Source: a virus. From it: DNA of 39,399 nt. The stretch spans positions 1 through 39,399 of the IMG/VR virus record IMGVR_UViG_3300032288_001774; one strand, written 5' to 3'. The notes below the pieces were generated by a model. The model worked only from the letters and a program-made list of their open reading frames with translations, had not been told where the DNA came from and searched no databases. Below are positions 22,865 to 36,659 of the stretch, piece by piece; the first letter of the stretch is position 1, and each line of letters begins with the position of its first letter. The position numbers were made by a program, and so were the translations under genes.

Positions 22865-24156
22865 TAGTCGAATGCCGTGCGGTGTCCGCTGATTGGGTAC
22901 TTGGCGGCCAAGTAATACCCGAAAGCGTCTGAGATGTGGGTGAGGGAAGGGTCGCGCTTCTTGTCTAGCTCGCCGCTGCCGCCTTGTAAAAGGCAGACAC
23001 CTTCGAGGTCTTGGACCAGATGCGGGGCCTTGGTTGGATCGGCTGCAAAGCGCACGAGGCCAGCGGCTGACTTAAGCCGGGCGTTGACTGCGTTGACGCG
23101 CTCGCGCTCGGGCGGGTTGGACTTAGCCACGCGCCAGTGCAGGTCGAAGTGGGGGCGCAGGTACTCGCGCACGAGGTCCCAGTCGCTGCCCTGCGTCTGG
23201 CTGGACTTGCGGGCCCCGCCCGTGGCGTCGCCGTAGACGTAGACCGGCCCCTTGTGCTTGCCCCAGTCGAGGGCCAGCTTGCGGCAGACGGCGGGCGTGT
23301 TGCTGTTGCGGGGGATGTAGACCTCACCGATGGCGCAGGTCGTCAGCAGCGGGCCGTGGATGCTTGGCAGCGTCTGCTCTTGCAGGATGGCGCACACGCC
23401 CGGGTCCACGTTGAAGTCGAAGCAGAACACGATGGGCTGGCTGGGGTCGTATTCCAGCCGCCGCAAGTGGACGTTGGCGTCGAACTGGTAGTAGGCGCGG
23501 CCCTCAAAGGACACGAAGTCGGCCTCGTACTCCTGCTGGAACGTGAGCGGGTCGAGGTCGCGGCGGGCTGCCTCGATCTCCTCGGGGCCGAGGATGTCAG
23601 CCGACACCCAGTGGAAGCTGGCCCAGTCGGCGCGGGTCTTGGCGTCGCGCCACAGCTCGTAGAAGTGGTTGCGGCCCTTCGGTCGCCCGGTGAACCAGCA
23701 CCAGCCCGGGCGGCCACGGGTCGAGAGCGCGGGGCGCAGGCTCTGCGTCCACGCCTCGGGGCGGCACTCGGCGTACTCGTCGAGCACGGCCCCGTCGATG
23801 GGGATGCCCTCGATGCGCTGCGGACGGTCAAGGCCCACGACCATGATGCGGGAGCCTGTCTTGAGGCGGATGGTTAGGTCCACCTCGCGGACCTCCTCGA
23901 TCCACTCGCGGGCGCAGAGGGCCTTGAGATCATCCCAGAAGATGCGGCGGGCTTGGTCGCGGGTAGGTGCGCCTGCGATGAACGTCGGCACGGCCACGTC
24001 GGGCGGGTCGAGGGCTTGCAAGACGAGGCGGCGCTTGGCGGTCTCGGTCTTACCCGAGCGGCGACCAGCGGCCACGACGCGGAAGCGCGCCGGGCTGCTG
24101 ATGAGGCGACCCTGCTCGGGGTGCGGGTCGAGTCGCGTCCAGCGTTCAGGGAGCAA
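22864..24156 (-). CDS. terL: Terminase large subunit
   Basis: A 430-residue packaging ATPase and nuclease. Walker A is GRRSGKT at residues 31-37, Walker B is AVLDEYAE with Asp126 and Glu127, and motif III is FTGRPKG at 155-161. The nuclease domain has acidic residues Asp247 (CFDFNVDPG), Asp310 (VYGDATGG) and Asp410 (HISDAFGYYLA). The N-terminus is short and the ATG at 24156 overlaps the methyltransferase end by 11 nt. All catalytic residues are present. Confidence 0.92.
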   Translation of the reverse strand: MLPERWTRLDPHPEQGRLISSPARFRVVAAGRRSGKTETAKRRLVLQALDPPDVAVPTFIAGAPTRDQARRIFWDDLKALCAREWIEEVREVDLTIRLKTGSRIMVVGLDRPQRIEGIPIDGAVLDEYAECRPEAWTQSLRPALSTRGRPGWCWFTGRPKGRNHFYELWRDAKTRADWASFHWVSADILGPEEIEAARRDLDPLTFQQEYEADFVSFEGRAYYQFDANVHLRRLEYDPSQPIVFCFDFNVDPGVCAILQEQTLPSIHGPLLTTCAIGEVYIPRNSNTPAVCRKLALDWGKHKGPVYVYGDATGGARKSSQTQGSDWDLVREYLRPHFDLHWRVAKSNPPERERVNAVNARLKSAAGLVRFAADPTKAPHLVQDLEGVCLLQGGSGELDKKRDPSLTHISDAFGYYLAAKYPISGHRTAFD

Positions 24157-25351
24157 ACAGTGCCCCCTGCCGTTGCTTGCTAGCCTCCTCGACGGCGGCG
24201 TCGATGCGTGCCTTGGCGATGGCTAGGTACGACTCCTCGCGCTCGATGCCGAGGAAGCGGAAGCCCTCCAGCACCGCAGCCTTGCCCGTGCTGCCGCTGC
24301 CCATGAACGGGTCAAGGACGAGTCCACCCGGCGGCGTGACAAGGCGGCACAAGTAGCGCATCAGGTCTGTGGGCTTAACCGTGGGATGGGCATTGCCTTC
24401 GCCACGGTCTGCCTTGCTTGCTTTGGCGCAGTAGAAAAAGCGCGCGGCACTGCCGGTGTCGGCATAGCTTTGCGTGGTCGCTCCAAATGCTTTTCCGTAT
24501 CGCCCGTTTTTTCCAAAGTCTCCGGTGTGAATCGGCTTTCCGTTGCCGCCTCCAGCTTGTGGAAACAGCCCCACCACCTCCTCGCTCCCGTCGTGGATGA
24601 GGTTGGCGGGCCAGCGGCCACCCGGTTTGTACATCGGGATCTCTTTGCCAAGAATGGAAGCCACCCATCCCTTGCCCACTGCGTTTCCGGTTCCTTCTGC
24701 TTGCTGCCTATGCACCATAGTCAGATCAACATCTGATCCGTGAGCCACCCTACACCCGTCCACGTTCAACGCGCCCGTGCCATGCTCCAGCACGTTGGCG
24801 GCAACGGTGCCGACCAGCGGCTTGCGGGCCACGGTGATCGGCTCAAGGGCTGGCTTGAGGGCGGTGCCCCAGCCTTGCCACTGACGGGCTGCGTCGGTGG
24901 CGGGTTCGGTGATATTTGCCCCGCCTGTGTTTCCTCCTTGGTAAACACCTTCGTAGCATGTTCCAGAAACGGGCCGGTGATTGGGGTTGCTGGCAATCAC
25001 TTTTCTTTCAGCCCCTGCTCCGTTGTCAATGGCCTTTGACACGTCCAAAGATTTCGGGAACCCGCTACCATACACCCACGCGATCATGTCGCGGATGTCG
25101 AAGCCAGCGTCCTCGATGCGAACGGCCATGCGGTGCTGCGTCCGCGTCCCGGCAAAGGCAAGCAGGTGCCCGCCGGGCTTCAGCACGCGCAGGCACTCGG
25201 CCCATACCTCGACCGACGGCACGTCGTAGTCCCAACGCTTGCCCATGAAGGACAAGCCATAGGGCGGGTCGGTGACGACCGCGTCCACGCTCGCCTCGGG
25301 CAGCGTGCGCAGCACGTCGTAACAATCACCGAGGCGTAGGTCGGTCAGCAC
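24146..25351 (-). CDS. DNA methyltransferase (N6-adenine or N4-cytosine, beta-like order)
   Basis: A 401-residue enzyme. The start is a GTG at 25351 that overlaps the upstream stop; an open frame further upstream is shadow sequence. Motif IV DPPY is at 28-31 and the AdoMet motif DPFMGSGSTG starts at 347, the order of the beta class. HPTVKPTDLMRYLCRLVTPPGG precedes it (shown in part as VKPTDLMRYL). The 200-residue centre is the target recognition region and is clearly more AT-rich than the two ends, which suggests exchange. It probably protects phage DNA from host restriction. Confidence 0.85.
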   Translation of the reverse strand: MLTDLRLGDCYDVLRTLPEASVDAVVTDPPYGLSFMGKRWDYDVPSVEVWAECLRVLKPGGHLLAFAGTRTQHRMAVRIEDAGFDIRDMIAWVYGSGFPKSLDVSKAIDNGAGAERKVIASNPNHRPVSGTCYEGVYQGGNTGGANITEPATDAARQWQGWGTALKPALEPITVARKPLVGTVAANVLEHGTGALNVDGCRVAHGSDVDLTMVHRQQAEGTGNAVGKGWVASILGKEIPMYKPGGRWPANLIHDGSEEVVGLFPQAGGGNGKPIHTGDFGKNGRYGKAFGATTQSYADTGSAARFFYCAKASKADRGEGNAHPTVKPTDLMRYLCRLVTPPGGLVLDPFMGSGSTGKAAVLEGFRFLGIEREESYLAIAKARIDAAVEEASKQRQGALFAP

Positions 25352-25581
25352 CCGTCGTCCTCGTGCTGGCGTTCCAGCTTGGCGACGGTGTCGCGCATCT
25401 GCTCCAGCCGCAGCCACAGCAACATGCCCCATCCTGCGAGATCTTGGCACTCGGCCTGTAGCTCGTCGATGAGGTGTTCGCCGCCCTTGCTGACGCTGTT
25501 GTTGCCGTAGATACGCTCGCCCTCGCACAGCCGCTGGTAGACGGCCTGCGTGAACCTGTCCCACTCGCGCTCGTACATCAT
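25345..25581 (-). CDS. Hypothetical protein, 78 residues
   Basis: The start MMYEREWDRFTQAVYQRL overlaps the upstream stop, and the stop overlaps the methyltransferase GTG. The middle RIYGNNSVSKGGEHLIDELQ followed by ECQDLAGWGMLLWLRLEQ resembles small phage proteins with a conserved ELxDLAGW helix. I recall the pattern but no proven function. A distant MazG-like helical fold is possible because of the acidic Glu/Asp spacing. Confidence 0.6.
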   Translation of the reverse strand: MMYEREWDRFTQAVYQRLCEGERIYGNNSVSKGGEHLIDELQAECQDLAGWGMLLWLRLEQMRDTVAKLERQHEDDGC

Positions 25582-29283: not shown

Positions 29284-29739
29284 CTAGTCGGCGTTGAGCA
29301 CCTTCTCGTACCGAACCTTGGGTTCGGTGGGTGCTTTGTCCGCTCGTCCTCTAGATGGTCTGCTCCACGATCCGCCAACCGACTGCGCGGCCTTCGACCA
29401 TCCGCTTGCTAGCAGAGAAACGCCCGACTCGCTTTGCAGGATGAAGGTCTGGATCTTCAGGTAGCCCATCTCTTTGCCGACTCTGGCCGCAGCCGCATAG
29501 AGCTTGCTGCATGCGTTCTTGGTGCCATCGGTGCAGAGCCTTGTGACCTCCAAGACCGTCGCCGCATTGGTCATCCTTGCGACCGGCCTGCCAACGCAGA
29601 TGACGCCGACAAGCTGCTCATCGCTCCACAACCCCAGCGAGAAGCGGTGACCTTGCACGCGTTTGTGGTGGCGGTGCAGCCTTTCCACGAACGCATTGGC
29701 ATCCCTCAGTTCGCAAGGGCGGACTTTAAAGTTGGGCAC
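29284..29739 (-). CDS. XF1762-like GNAT-type acetyltransferase protein
   Basis: A 151-residue protein from a GTG at 29739. The stretches LHRHHKRVQGHRFSLGL, VGVICVGRPVARM, LEVTRLCTDGTKNACSKLY and MGYLKIQTFILQSESG are the hallmark of the XF1762 group of phage and bacterial GNAT-like proteins. The substrate is unknown. It lies in a row of small accessory genes and may modify a host target or phage DNA. The C-terminal 30 residues are basic and Ser-rich. Confidence 0.75.
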   Translation of the reverse strand: MPNFKVRPCELRDANAFVERLHRHHKRVQGHRFSLGLWSDEQLVGVICVGRPVARMTNAATVLEVTRLCTDGTKNACSKLYAAAARVGKEMGYLKIQTFILQSESGVSLLASGWSKAAQSVGGSWSRPSRGRADKAPTEPKVRYEKVLNAD

Positions 29740-31155: not shown

Positions 31156-32004
31156 TTAGAAGGTCGGGATGGGCGGCTCGTCACCACCCTCGGCGGCCTT
31201 GGCGGCAGCCTCCTCCAGCTCGGCTTTGCGAGCGCGGTAAGCGTCGCGGGCCGTCTTGAGGTCGGTGCCGGTGAGTTGCTTGGCGGCGTCCTTGCAGGCA
31301 TCGAGGCCCACGAGGTCGCGCGCGTTGTCGAAGCAGGCGAGGATCTCCTCCAGCAGAACGGGCTGCGGGGCGACGACCTCGGCTGGCTTGACGACCTCGA
31401 CCTCGGCCACTGGCAGCCCTGCGGCTGCGAGCTTGGCCGTAAGTCGGTCGGTGCCGGTCGGTGCCGAAGCGGGCGCGGCCTTGCCTTGGATCTCGTCGAG
31501 CTCGTCGAGGCTGTAGCTGCCCGACATCACCTCGGCGGCAAACGCACGACCCGCCGAGGTCACGGCGCGGGCGCGCAGCATGGTCTCGGGGTAACGCTGC
31601 CAGCCTTGGCCTTGGTTCCACAACCCGGCGGCTTGCGCGCGAGCCTTGTCCCACTTCTCGATGTGCACTGCGCCCTTGGGGTCGGTGAGCTTGAGCACCA
31701 CGCGCTCGGCGCTGCTCTCGGTCCACTCGACGCGGTAGCCGTTGCGCTTGAGCAACGCCACCCACAGCGAGTAGTCGGCACCCACCTTGCCCTTGACCAC
31801 GTGCAGGCCACGCATGGCTGCCATCGGGCCAAGGCCCAGCTCGCGGCCTGCGAGGATAGTGGCGAGGATCTGGCCCTCCGTGCGCAGGTGCTCGGGGATC
31901 AGCCCCGACGCGCCCTTGAGCATGCGGGCCAGTTCCATCATCTGGGGGACGGCGGCGAGCACGTCGGTGCTGGCGGCCACGGTAGCAATCGTCATCTCGG
32001 TCAT
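31156..32004 (-). CDS. recT: RecT-family single-strand annealing protein
   Basis: A 282-residue protein starting MTEMTIATVAASTDVLAAVP. The ATG at 32004 follows GGAAG with a 6-nt gap, in a leader shared with two other genes. Core stretches ATILAGRELGLGPMAAMRGL, GKVGADYSLWVALLKRNGY and YPETMLRARAVTSAGRAFA, with SGSYSLDELDEIQG, are those of RecT proteins. It works with the YqaJ exonuclease upstream in phage recombination. The C-terminal 90 residues are acidic and variable, ending GGDEPPIPTF. Confidence 0.85.
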   Translation of the reverse strand: MTEMTIATVAASTDVLAAVPQMMELARMLKGASGLIPEHLRTEGQILATILAGRELGLGPMAAMRGLHVVKGKVGADYSLWVALLKRNGYRVEWTESSAERVVLKLTDPKGAVHIEKWDKARAQAAGLWNQGQGWQRYPETMLRARAVTSAGRAFAAEVMSGSYSLDELDEIQGKAAPASAPTGTDRLTAKLAAAGLPVAEVEVVKPAEVVAPQPVLLEEILACFDNARDLVGLDACKDAAKQLTGTDLKTARDAYRARKAELEEAAAKAAEGGDEPPIPTF

Positions 32005-32055
32005 CGTCGTCTTCCTTTCAGATAGCCGCACTCGCGGCTTACAGTTGGCCGCGCG

Positions 32056-32940
32056 TCACTTGACGCGCAGCACACGGGACTCGGTCTGGTTGCAGCACTC
32101 TTCGTAGATCGACGAGTACTGCGCCTTGAATCGTGCGGTGTCCAATCGACGCGACACCTGCGTCTTCCATGTTGCCACAACCTTGCCCGCTGAGTCAACA
32201 GCGGTGTCGGCATCTTGCATTGCCCGCTTGAGGGCAAGCTCGGCTTCCTCGATTTGCTGTTCAAGTTGCGCGATCTGGTCGCGGTACGCCTTGCGGTTGT
32301 TGATGGCGATGACCACGTCCTCGGGCAGCGTGACGCTGCGCCCGGTGGACTTGCGCCACAGGTCGTTGGCCTCGGCTGCGGTGACCGGGTCGGGCGGCAC
32401 TTCCTTCAGCACGTTCTCGTGCCAGAAGCGTTCGGCCAGCGCGCGGAGCTGGTTGACCACAAGCGGGATCTTGCGCTGCGAGTAGATGCGGAAGTCGCTG
32501 CCCGCGATCAGGACGGCGAAGTCCACGCGGTCGAGGCCAAGCACGTCGCAGTACCACTGGCCTTGGCAGGCGTAGTGGTCGGGCACGTCGTCGCTGTACG
32601 CCTGACCCCAGCCTCGGTCGGTGCGTGCGGTCTTGGCCTCGACGACGTAGGTCTGGTCGTTGAGCACAGCCTCGGCGTCCACGTTCGCCATGCGCCAGCC
32701 GTCGGCCAGCACGGTGTCACGCTTACGCAGCGTGGCCCCGGTCTGCTGCGCGTACGTGTCGAGCACGAGCGGCTCCAGCCGGGTGCCCCACGACATCGCG
32801 GCGTTCTCCTCGACGGTGTCGCCGAGGACCTTTTCCTTCCACACCTGCAACGGCGTCTTCCACGGGTTGAGCCCGGCGATGGCAGCGACGTCGCTGCCAC
32901 CGATGCCTTTGCGGCGCAGTTCTGCGAAGGTGTTAGTCAC
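32056..32940 (-). CDS. YqaJ-like viral exonuclease
   Basis: A 294-residue nuclease from a GTG at 32940, with AAGGA 7 nt upstream. IGGSDVAAIAGLNPWKTPLQ and SWGTRLEPLVLDTYAQ are YqaJ hallmarks. Catalytic residues are likely Glu56 (RLEP), Asp88 (NVDAEAV), Glu101 and Lys103 (VEAKTAR). DHYACQGQWYCDVLG follows, as in the family. It should resect double-stranded DNA ends to expose a strand for RecT. Residues about 215-245 form a coiled coil. Confidence 0.85.
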   Translation of the reverse strand: MTNTFAELRRKGIGGSDVAAIAGLNPWKTPLQVWKEKVLGDTVEENAAMSWGTRLEPLVLDTYAQQTGATLRKRDTVLADGWRMANVDAEAVLNDQTYVVEAKTARTDRGWGQAYSDDVPDHYACQGQWYCDVLGLDRVDFAVLIAGSDFRIYSQRKIPLVVNQLRALAERFWHENVLKEVPPDPVTAAEANDLWRKSTGRSVTLPEDVVIAINNRKAYRDQIAQLEQQIEEAELALKRAMQDADTAVDSAGKVVATWKTQVSRRLDTARFKAQYSSIYEECCNQTESRVLRVK

Positions 32941-34121: not shown

Positions 34122-34333
34122 TGCTGCACCACCTTCCTACGTGCAGCGGGAATGATGCGATAGTTACCACGGCTGCTGACTTCCCAGTGGTAGCCACAAA
34201 CCCAGTGAGTCGCCAGCATGCGCTTCAGGCTGTCAAGGCACGCGGTCGTCAAAGGATCCGGTACCATGGCTGCAAGCTTGTTGATGCCGTCGCACAAACG
34301 CTTGGCGTCACACAGCGGATAGTTGGTCGTCAT
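34118..34333 (-). CDS. Hypothetical protein, 71 residues
   Basis: The ATG at 34333 has the repeated leader GGAAGACGACGATGAC, also found before recT and before the gene at 34372-34581. The protein reads MTTNYPLCDAKRLCDGINKL, with CLDSLKRMLATHWVCGYHW and a basic end. No family is recognised. It begins a run of three overlapping small genes. Confidence 0.6.
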   Translation of the reverse strand: MTTNYPLCDAKRLCDGINKLAAMVPDPLTTACLDSLKRMLATHWVCGYHWEVSSRGNYRIIPAARRKVVQQ

Positions 34334-34371
34334 CGTCGTCTTCCTTTCTGCGCCCCGTAGGGCGCGGGTCG

Positions 34372-34581
34372 TCAGATCGAAATCGCAAGGTCGTCAAGGA
34401 TCAGCTTGGCGCGGCCGGTGATCTCCAGCGTCTTGCGCTCGTAGCTGTAGCGCACAACAAGGACGTGCTCGCGTAGGCACTTGGGGCACTTGGTGTGCTC
34501 GGCAGCATCCTCCATGCCGGTGTACGGGATGGGCTGCGCAAACTTGTGTTTGGGGCAAACCTTGGTAGCGGTAGTCGTCAT
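34372..34581 (-). CDS. Small zinc-ribbon-like protein, 69 residues
   Basis: The ATG at 34581 has the repeated leader described for the gene before recT. VCPKHKF and KCPKCLREH give two Cys/His pairs, fitting one zinc ribbon. ERKTLEITGRAKLILDDL ends the protein. It is the first gene after the pentamer array in transcription order. Its function is unknown. Confidence 0.65.
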   Translation of the reverse strand: MTTTATKVCPKHKFAQPIPYTGMEDAAEHTKCPKCLREHVLVVRYSYERKTLEITGRAKLILDDLAISI

Positions 34582-34738
34582 CGTCGTCTTCCTTTCTCGT
34601 CGTCGTGGTCAGCACTGCGCTGCTCACACAAGCAGTATCGTCCAAGTAGACGCTGGGATTTACTAGTTGTTCCCAAATCCTGCGCGTGTTACACGGCGTT
34701 CGGGTGCCGTTCGGGTTGTACGGTGCGGGGGAACCGTA
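34582..34738 (-). promoter_or_regulatory. Leader between the pentamer array and the zinc-ribbon gene
   Basis: No gene is supported. The leader of the gene at 34372-34581 starts here. AGCACTGCGCTGCT near 34614-34627 is a small inverted repeat. A -10-like GATACT near 34636-34641 (minus strand) lacks a good -35 box. A promoter here is possible but weak. Confidence 0.25.
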
Positions 34739-35400
34739 GCTTGCCTTGCCTCGCCTTGCCTGTGCATGCCCTGCCTGCCTTGCCACACCCCTACGTGCCC
34801 GTTCTTGCCTTGCCTGCCTTGTTGGGACACGCCTTGCCACGCCAAGCTACACCTCGTCCCAACTTGCCTTGCCTCGCCTGCCCTACCTTGCCGTGCCTCG
34901 CCGCTGCTTGCCCTACCTTGCCTTGCCTGCCTTGTCTTGACCAACCCAACCATGTCCTCCATGCCCTGCCGCGCCAGACCTCGACGAGCCATGCCTGCCT
35001 TGTCCGACCTCGCCGGTCCAAGCCGGTACTCGCCGCGCCTCTTCTTGCCGAGCCTTGCCGTGCCTGCCATGCCTCGCCATGCCGTATCCAGCCGATTCCT
35101 GCCTCGCCAGACCTTGCCTCGCCTGCCATGCCATTCCACGCCACGCCTAGCCAAGGCCCGCCTGCCTTGACAGGCCGCGCCTGACCTCAACCTGCCAGAA
35201 CCCGCCTCGCCTGCCTTGTCGCACCATGCCGGACCATTCCGGGCCCTGCCACTCCTTGCCGTGCACTGCCGCGCCATGCCTGCCTTTCCATGCCCCGCCA
35301 GACCCCGCCATATCCCGCCAGACCCTGCCACGCCTGCCTTGCCTTTTCGTGCCGTGCCGAATCGCGCCGTGCCGTTTCGAGCCATGCCAAGCCTGCCAAG
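34739..35400. repeat. Degenerate pentanucleotide array, NNGCC (plus) / GGCNN (minus)
   Basis: About 660 bp are made almost only of 4-6-nt units such as TTGCC, TCGCC, ATGCC, GTGCC, AGACC and TGCC. The plus strand is poor in purines and the minus strand has a GG doublet about every 5 nt. Open frames appear in several frames on both strands, with no codon preference, because the units rarely create stops. That argues against coding. On the minus strand GGN3GGN3 runs could form two-tetrad G-quadruplexes. It sits between genes of the early operon, near the RecT/YqaJ pair. Possible roles are an origin, a protein-binding array, or a decoy RNA. Confidence 0.9.
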
Positions 35401-35403
35401 TAA

Positions 35404-35427
35404 CCGGGCCAGCTTGCGCCAGCCCGG
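35404..35427 (-). terminator. Hairpin between the array and the upstream operon
   Basis: CCGGGC at 35404-35409 pairs with GCCCGG at 35422-35427 around 12 nt. It follows the stop of the gene at 35440-35928 by 12 nt. On the minus strand it is followed by TTACTTGG, so the T tract is poor. It may end or weaken transcription into the array. Confidence 0.4.
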
Positions 35428-35439
35428 ATTGTCCTTCTG

Positions 35440-35928
35440 TTACAGCCTGTCCACCGCAGCCCACACGTCGGCGAACTCGGCGAACGCCTCGTGCTTGCGA
35501 CGCATCGCCTTCAGCTCTGCGCGTAGCTGCGCCATCAAAGCCGCCCTCATACCATCGTCACCCATCAAAAGTTCGACGGGCCGGTAAAGGTAGCCGCGGT
35601 TGTGCAACTCCTCCGCGTCGTGCTCCTCGCAAGTCACCTCACGCACGGACACCCATGCTTGAAGCGGCTTCGAGCATCCCTCGGGGATGACCGTGACGCA
35701 GTTGATGATCTGACGCGCCTCTTGGAGACGCCACTGGTGCGCCGCCTCGGGGTCGTGCCACGTGAAGTGGTCGTGCAGCAGCGCGTCCTTTGGACGGCTG
35801 GCCTCAACCACAGCGGGCGGGGTAAGCCCGTCTGCGGCCAGCTCGATGCGCTCCAGCTCCTCGCCCACGGCTTGCGCCGTGAGCCCGGAGACGATGCGTG
35901 CAGGCTTGTACCCGTACTGTTTGGACAT
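35440..35928 (-). CDS. Conserved phage protein of unknown function, 162 residues
   Basis: The ATG at 35928 follows GGAGG and overlaps the upstream stop (TGATG). The N-terminal phrase ARIVSGLTAQAVGEELERIE, then GLTPPAVVEASRP and LLHDHFTWHDPEAAHQWRL, recur in phage and plasmid proteins I have seen without a function. The C-terminal 50 residues (MRAALMAQLRAELKAMRRKHE) are helical. It is paired with the gene before it, which often travels with it. A role in DNA replication or recombination is an inference from location. Confidence 0.65.
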   Translation of the reverse strand: MSKQYGYKPARIVSGLTAQAVGEELERIELAADGLTPPAVVEASRPKDALLHDHFTWHDPEAAHQWRLQEARQIINCVTVIPEGCSKPLQAWVSVREVTCEEHDAEELHNRGYLYRPVELLMGDDGMRAALMAQLRAELKAMRRKHEAFAEFADVWAAVDRL

Positions 35929-36560
35929 CACTTGCCCTCCCACGAAAAGCTCGACACCATCGCGTAGCGGCCCTTGTCGCCGTCGCACTCGGGGCGGTGC
36001 TCACCGACGCCGACCGCGAAGCCGCCGAGGTTAAGCAGGTTGATGACCTGTTCTGCCGTGAACGCACGGCGGTTGTATTGCAGGCGCAGCACGACGCCCC
36101 ACCTGCGGAACTCGGGGCGGAAGCGGATGTCCGCCGTGCCCATGCCGACGCGCACCATGTCCTCGCGCATCACGGGCGGGCAGTCGTCTGGGTGCAGGAT
36201 CGGCGTGAGGTCGCCGCCGTCCGGGTCGGGCAACAGGTGGAACGCTTGACGCGCCCCGACCTTGGTCACGTCCTTGCCCAGCGAGGTCACCGCCGTCACG
36301 GCTGCGGCCTTGAAGGCGAGGATCGGGAACGCAGGGCGACCGTCGGCCAGACGGTAAAACGCCGACTCGTATTCAACCTGCGGGTCTTTCTTTTCCTTGC
36401 CCTTGGAAGCCTTGCCCATCTGCTTGTCGAGCATCATGCGCTTGGCCTTTTCGGACCACGCATGCGTGATCAGCGGGGAGGTTCCTTCGAGCTTGACCTG
36501 CAACACGGCGAGGTCAAGCATGACGAGGCTGATAGCCTCGGAATCTACGGTAGCTTTCAT
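35928..36560 (-). CDS. Conserved phage protein, 210 residues, RAMP-like C-terminus possible
   Basis: I choose the ATG at 36560 (MKATVDSEAISLVMLDLAVL). Core stretches are EGTSPLITHAWSEKAKRMML, RPAFPILAFKAAAVTA and EFRRWGVVLRLQYNRRAFTAE. The end NLGGFAVGVGEHRPECDGDKG followed by RYAMVSS recalls the glycine-rich end of Cas7-like and other RRM-fold proteins; that is a resemblance only. It is the partner of the gene at 35440-35928. A nucleic-acid-binding role is possible. Confidence 0.6.
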   Translation of the reverse strand: MKATVDSEAISLVMLDLAVLQVKLEGTSPLITHAWSEKAKRMMLDKQMGKASKGKEKKDPQVEYESAFYRLADGRPAFPILAFKAAAVTAVTSLGKDVTKVGARQAFHLLPDPDGGDLTPILHPDDCPPVMREDMVRVGMGTADIRFRPEFRRWGVVLRLQYNRRAFTAEQVINLLNLGGFAVGVGEHRPECDGDKGRYAMVSSFSWEGK

Positions 36561-36659
36561 CTGCGACTCTTTTCTCCACCTTAGGGGTTCTTCTTGCTGC
36601 GACATGCAGCGCGAGGATTGTAGGTGGTGTGCGTTCTTTAGAGGTTGCGACGACGCGCG

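Follow-up and report, generated by a model that had tools for sequence, protein, structure and literature searches.

What is the role of the array of degenerate pentanucleotides at positions 34739–35400 of this viral sequence, which at its full length of 39,399 nucleotides we refer to as the window? We conclude that the array is very probably part of a tailed-phage VIPR locus, with vipr, vap and, downstream of them, the vrRNA guides all on one strand, and that this locus would silence the genes of competitors. The link to VIPR was reached by a literature search after viral contigs had been scanned for the array pattern. VIPR is a recently described (2026 preprint) CRISPR-like system and a proposed forerunner of CRISPR (PMC13142463); it is phage-borne, and its components are Vipr, which is a small RAMP protein, the accessory gene vap, and vrRNAs in which GGY and NN motifs alternate (PMC13142463; bioRxiv 2026.04.26.720920). 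The conserved GG doublets of the guides are the scaffold and the NN dinucleotides carry the information, pairing with double-stranded DNA in such a way that one base is skipped, and transcription is silenced (PMC13142463).

Organization of the array

The original prediction described units of about 5 nt that retain GCC while the other two bases vary, and this is borne out, with nearly exact coordinates. The lag-5 autocorrelation proposed as a check gives an identity of 0.507 within the array, well above the 0.308 of dinucleotide-preserving shuffles (z = 11.2); at lag 10 the identity is 0.526 (z = 12.4), and there are further harmonics at 15 and 20. GCC occurs 87 times versus 45 +/- 4 in shuffles, with spacings of 5 (40 instances), 10 (23), 15 (7) and 4 (13), and sliding windows across the remainder of the 39 kb show no comparable periodic signal. 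Because the identified genes flanking the array are on the minus strand, its relevant sequence is GGCNN, and it reads on that strand as (GGY-NN)n with a 4-nt GGCA unit (TGCC on the plus strand) at the end of each of eleven closed cassettes. These 4-nt units are joints dividing the array into cassettes, and are not noise. When the array is split at GGCA the closed cassettes are 39–69 nt long, and ten of the eleven are exactly 5n+4.

All of the features are on the minus strand. The array is preceded by a leader hairpin, CCGGGCUGGC-GCAA-GCUGGCCCGG (35404–35427), that folds at -20.4 kcal/mol (z = -2.1), and by a last leader element, UACUUGGCA (35394–35402), which is identical in eight relatives. 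The closed cassettes then run from 35393 down to 34776: cassette 1 (35335–35393; 11 units and a GGCA joint), 2 (35281–35334; 10 units), 3 (35212–35280; 13 units), 4 (35163–35211; 9 units), 5 (35124–35162; 7 units), 6 (35065–35123; 11 units), 7 (34996–35064; 13 units), 8 (34928–34995), which has one internal 4-nt slip and hence is 5n+3, 9 (34879–34927; 9 units), 10 (34815–34878; 12 units) and 11 (34776–34814; 7 units). A last, partial cassette (34775 to about 34737) is unclosed and leaves the 3′ end of the array undefined. Read from the DNA (the RNA ends may differ), the cassettes have 7–13 units; the published range for type II vrRNAs is 9–16 repeats in each guide (PMC13142463), and the 7-unit cassettes fall short of it. 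No CRISPR-length direct repeats are present within the array, and an Rfam search gave no match.

The information content of the 102 in-register units is 1.78, 1.00 and 0.84 bits for G, G and Y, and 0.25 and 0.04 bits for the two N positions; GGY is thus conserved and NN almost free. The units are less regular than those of relatives, with the second G kept in 81 of the 102, and some cassettes may therefore be decaying. A broader version of this is that the whole array is in decay, with vipr and vap intact and the guides partly functionless and drifting. The 21 units without the second G, the several 7-unit cassettes and the internal slip are in keeping with it; however, the leader, the 5n+4 spacing and the GGCA joints are kept (in 10 of 11 closed cassettes), the lag-5 signal is very strong, and the GA and GT unit variants are also present in the arrays of Escherichia phage SUSP1 and of contig L251. 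We consider general decay unlikely, if worth keeping in mind.

An ATG-started frame of 240 codons spans most of the array, which could suggest a repeat-containing protein. This is the least probable of the alternatives, since every 5n+4 cassette shifts the frame, and relatives replace whole cassettes. A protein-level match had been named as evidence against selection on nucleic acid, and the array frame has no PHROGs or Pfam family match. The proposal that selection acts on DNA or RNA and not on protein holds, although not through the open frames that were offered in its favor: the sole stop codon that a GGCNN repeat can form is TAG, so several open frames are expected and uninformative.

The vipr and vap genes

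Two genes upstream of the array, with vap between, is an open reading frame at 35928–36605 (minus strand; ATG at 36560 is the likelier start) that matches phrog_4652, a family of unknown function. Both sequence and model indicate that it encodes a Vipr protein homologous to SUSP1 Vipr, with a RAMP fold and G-loop. A profile built from 62 homologues finds PDB 36pp, 'SUSP1 Vipr protein' (E = 2.3e-44), which is also found with the window Vipr as a single-sequence query (E = 1.1e-5), and an hhalign comparison with the SUSP1 gene scores 99.9%. Its AlphaFold2 model is confident (pLDDT 93.5, pTM 0.87), and all 50 of the PDB matches listed by Foldseek are CRISPR RAMP complexes, mainly of the Csm3/Cas7 type (best E = 1.9e-6, prob 1.00). 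G180, G184, G186 and R189 are near-invariant, and among the near-invariant residues are the glycines and arginine of a G-loop-like motif, GxGDxRP.

The vap start codon overlaps the vipr stop (vap, 35440–35928, minus strand; phrog_15946), and vap accompanies vipr in 75 of 80 relatives. Its model is confident (pLDDT 90.4), and no fold match was found for it in the PDB. Seven types of VIPR and accessory genes vap1–6 are distinguished in the published account (PMC13142463). No sequence relation was found between the window vap and SUSP1 vap1, and for this reason we do not call the locus type II.

The array was also predicted to be a possible sponge for a host RNA-binding protein, and a short RNA motif repeated over a long stretch is what such a sponge would look like. 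But neither a distinct NN in each unit nor the exchange of cassettes among relatives described below would be needed for this, and the phage, judged from sequence and model, has a gene of its own for a binder of such RNA. A host-protein sponge is unsupported and most improbable; by analogy with the published system, the repeat RNA is expected to be bound by the phage's own Vipr instead.

Distribution of the locus and cassette turnover

When viral contigs were scanned for eight exact GCCNN units, at least 120 stretches were returned, and in many of these the array extends over hundreds of bases. Among the 120 such stretches listed, Vipr is encoded in 84, and 90 show two or more array runs on the same strand, compared with no array runs and no Vipr in 110 control viral stretches fetched for unrelated patterns; these counts include near-duplicate assemblies. 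Vipr was not detectable in 36 of the 120 (L002–L121); some of these are truncated at contig ends or match the pattern by chance, and others may have more distant Vipr types. In a bacterial scan, three of 120 stretches encode Vipr, with the remainder mostly low-complexity repeats in high-GC genomes.

This near-exclusive association of array and vipr bears on the predictions that the array is a DNA element such as an origin, a packaging or partition site, or a recombination hot spot, or that it forms G-quadruplexes. The strand asymmetry is strong, and two-tetrad quadruplexes are in principle possible with GG doublets spaced 5 nt apart. However, near-random NN, cassette joints and an adjoining Vipr gene are all needless for such sites, and contig L103 has three separate arrays flanking vipr and vap. 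Neither proposal finds support, and we regard both as very improbable.

The original prediction called for a search for arrays at the same place in related phages, and eight contigs whose Vipr is 70–72% identical to that of the window do carry an array downstream of vipr and vap. Each opens with a hairpin followed by UACUUGGCA|GGC, and the joints are kept; the window hairpin differs in sequence from those at the same place in the relatives, and the same UACUUGGCA|GGC follows it. Because L245 nearly duplicates L249, and L246 likewise L248, the evidence for turnover that can be counted as independent comes from about six arrays. Identical whole cassettes occur at different ranks, one example being the first of L243 and the fifth of L246, and a second the ninth of L244 and the fifth of L250; other cassettes are replaced between arrays. 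Where cassettes are homologous, NN differs at 30 of 206 sites versus 6 of 206 for GG (about five times), with the caveat that the pairs are not all independent. No window cassette is recognizably common to the eight relatives. A tentative suggestion, which we think possible and no better, is that GGCA-delimited cassettes are mobile spacer-like units, with whole guides being gained, lost and moved in the arrays of this clade.

We note two other types of joint among the viral stretches. L009 has a 9-nt joint, GGCGTTCNN (L009:1986–2351), and in a 1.6-kb array in L064 (L064:1963–3555) a sequence of roughly 40 nt recurs and breaks up the repeats.

Comparison with other VIPR loci and with CRISPR-Cas

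One comparison is with the type II VIPR of SUSP1 (PMC13142463; PDB 36pp), which is likewise phage-borne, with a small RAMP protein containing a G-loop, vap beside vipr, and a GGY/NN tandem-repeat array; the SUSP1 GGTNN arrays adjoin the vipr gene. The two Vipr proteins differ, being only distantly related (about 18% identity), the vap genes are unrelated by sequence, and SUSP1 has separate guides of ~100 nt with a structured 3′ tail, whereas in the window the cassettes lie head to tail, joined by GGCA and without an intervening tail. Both vap1 and tail-separated guides, which are features of type II (SUSP1-like) loci, are absent from the window locus. Staggered arrays, in which vrRNAs overlap, are mentioned in the VIPR report (PMC13142463), and these may be the same as the GGCA-joined architecture seen here.

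Closer relatives are found in Brocalys and Donkeykong, which we take to be cluster F mycobacteriophages (database records give Cheoctovirus), and in the Gordonia phages Pipp, UmaThurman and Ecliptus, with Vipr proteins that are 41–44% identical to that of the window. They have a homologous vap (in the four loci read), and 5n+4 cassettes with the GGCA joint adjoin vipr; they differ in that the array is upstream of vipr or between vipr and vap, with fewer cassettes and other guides. The window locus belongs to this VIPR clade with GGCA-joined cassettes, which occurs also in cluster F mycobacteriophages and Gordonia phages. In Pipp, Ecliptus, Brocalys and Donkeykong (L364–L367) Vipr, vap and the GGCA-jointed arrays are annotated as hypothetical proteins or empty gaps, and in Brocalys and Donkeykong the locus lies close to the immunity repressor and the antirepressor.

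Class 1 CRISPR-Cas RAMP complexes (Csm3/Cas7) resemble the VIPR locus in their RAMP fold, RNA-guided recognition and turnover of guide cassettes, but the guide here is a non-contiguous pentamer code and sequence identity is ~10%. No cas family was found among 20 window proteins scanned with PHROGs and 10 scanned with Pfam. We rejected the possibility that the window array is itself CRISPR-Cas, there being no repeat-spacer array and no cas gene found.

Guide decoding and target searches

As queries we took 644 guides, the majority of them from this clade, and searched both strands of about 2.3 Mb of fetched DNA, most of it viral, with arrays masked. With a 1-nt skip, eight guides score at least 8, compared with one, zero and zero for 0-, 2- and 3-nt skips and zero when NN order is shuffled, and most of the best matches fall within coding frames, the skipped base being the wobble base. 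By these sequence matches, guides of the wider clade fit the genes of other phages best under the published 1-nt-skip rule. A wobble-skipping codon model fits best for 526 of 590 clade guides, although much of this is because of base composition; after within-guide shuffling the codon signal is significant for the pooled set (z = 5.6) but not for the window (z = 0.6).

For the window guides themselves we used 8-unit seeds of cassettes 7, 3, 6, 10, 1 and 2 against 2.9 million viral contigs. Seeds matched 110 contigs with the remaining units at chance level, and no convincing target was found, which is a further point in favor of array decay. Two candidates were set aside. One is a 21/22 match of cassette 1 in the tape-measure gene of L416, for which ~0.2 such chance matches are estimated for that guide. 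The second is a 20/24 match of cassette 10, in frame near the start of the L049 vipr; three of 644 shuffled guides score equally high, and the match is weakened further because the searched set is rich in vipr genes. Cassette 7 has a single 2-mismatch site in 199 genomes of one phylum.

Two examples come from guides of other loci. One guide, L293:7238–7293, matches the vap genes of L309, L301 and L271 at 20/22 and its own vap (L293:6951) at 15/22. The L293 vap keeps the peptide GLIRSVVAIY but with TTA, AGG and AGC, where other loci have CTN, CGG and TCN; through this use of the other codon family for Leu, Arg and Ser it would, in this one case, escape its own guide. In the second example, an L290 guide matches another phage's DNA methyltransferase-like gene at its DPPY motif region (L256:10692; 19/20).

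A model for the locus, and its implications

The array is most likely co-transcribed with vipr and vap from the minus strand; because no promoter or terminator consensus was found, with nothing above chance in the scan, we infer this transcription unit from gene order. If the published system is a guide to events here, the array RNA would be processed at GGCA to give individual guides, [GGYNN]n cassettes bounded by joints. Each guide would be coated by Vipr subunits, GGY serving as a non-pairing scaffold, and the NN dinucleotides would pair with double-stranded DNA as NN-x-NN-x-NN, the skipped base usually being the wobble base of a codon. Once bound, the complex would keep the targeted genes, those of competing phages or of other mobile elements, from being transcribed.

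The window phage also encodes a Mom-like DNA modification protein (29284–29739), a DNA methyltransferase (24146–25564) and a RecE/RecT-like recombination pair (31156–32940), all on the minus strand, and downstream of the array the RBS/start sequence GAAAGGAAGACGACGATGAC occurs at two small genes in succession (about 34328–34350 and 34572–34600, minus strand). Its terminase is closest to that of a spring-water virus (54%) and is 44–47% identical to loci in two genomes of a single phylum, one of them that of Planctomycetes bacterium Pla86; as a hint of the host this sequence likeness is only suggestive.

The locus and its relatives show how a guide array changes, with fixed-joint cassettes kept, replaced and moved, and with NN varying several-fold more than GG. 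If cassettes are indeed mobile, they would constitute a guide memory that phages carry and can update, with no acquisition enzyme known for it. Guide acquisition by VIPR becomes testable through cassette turnover, and tractable hosts are at hand, since this architecture is present also in Mycobacterium and Gordonia phages that are grown in the laboratory.
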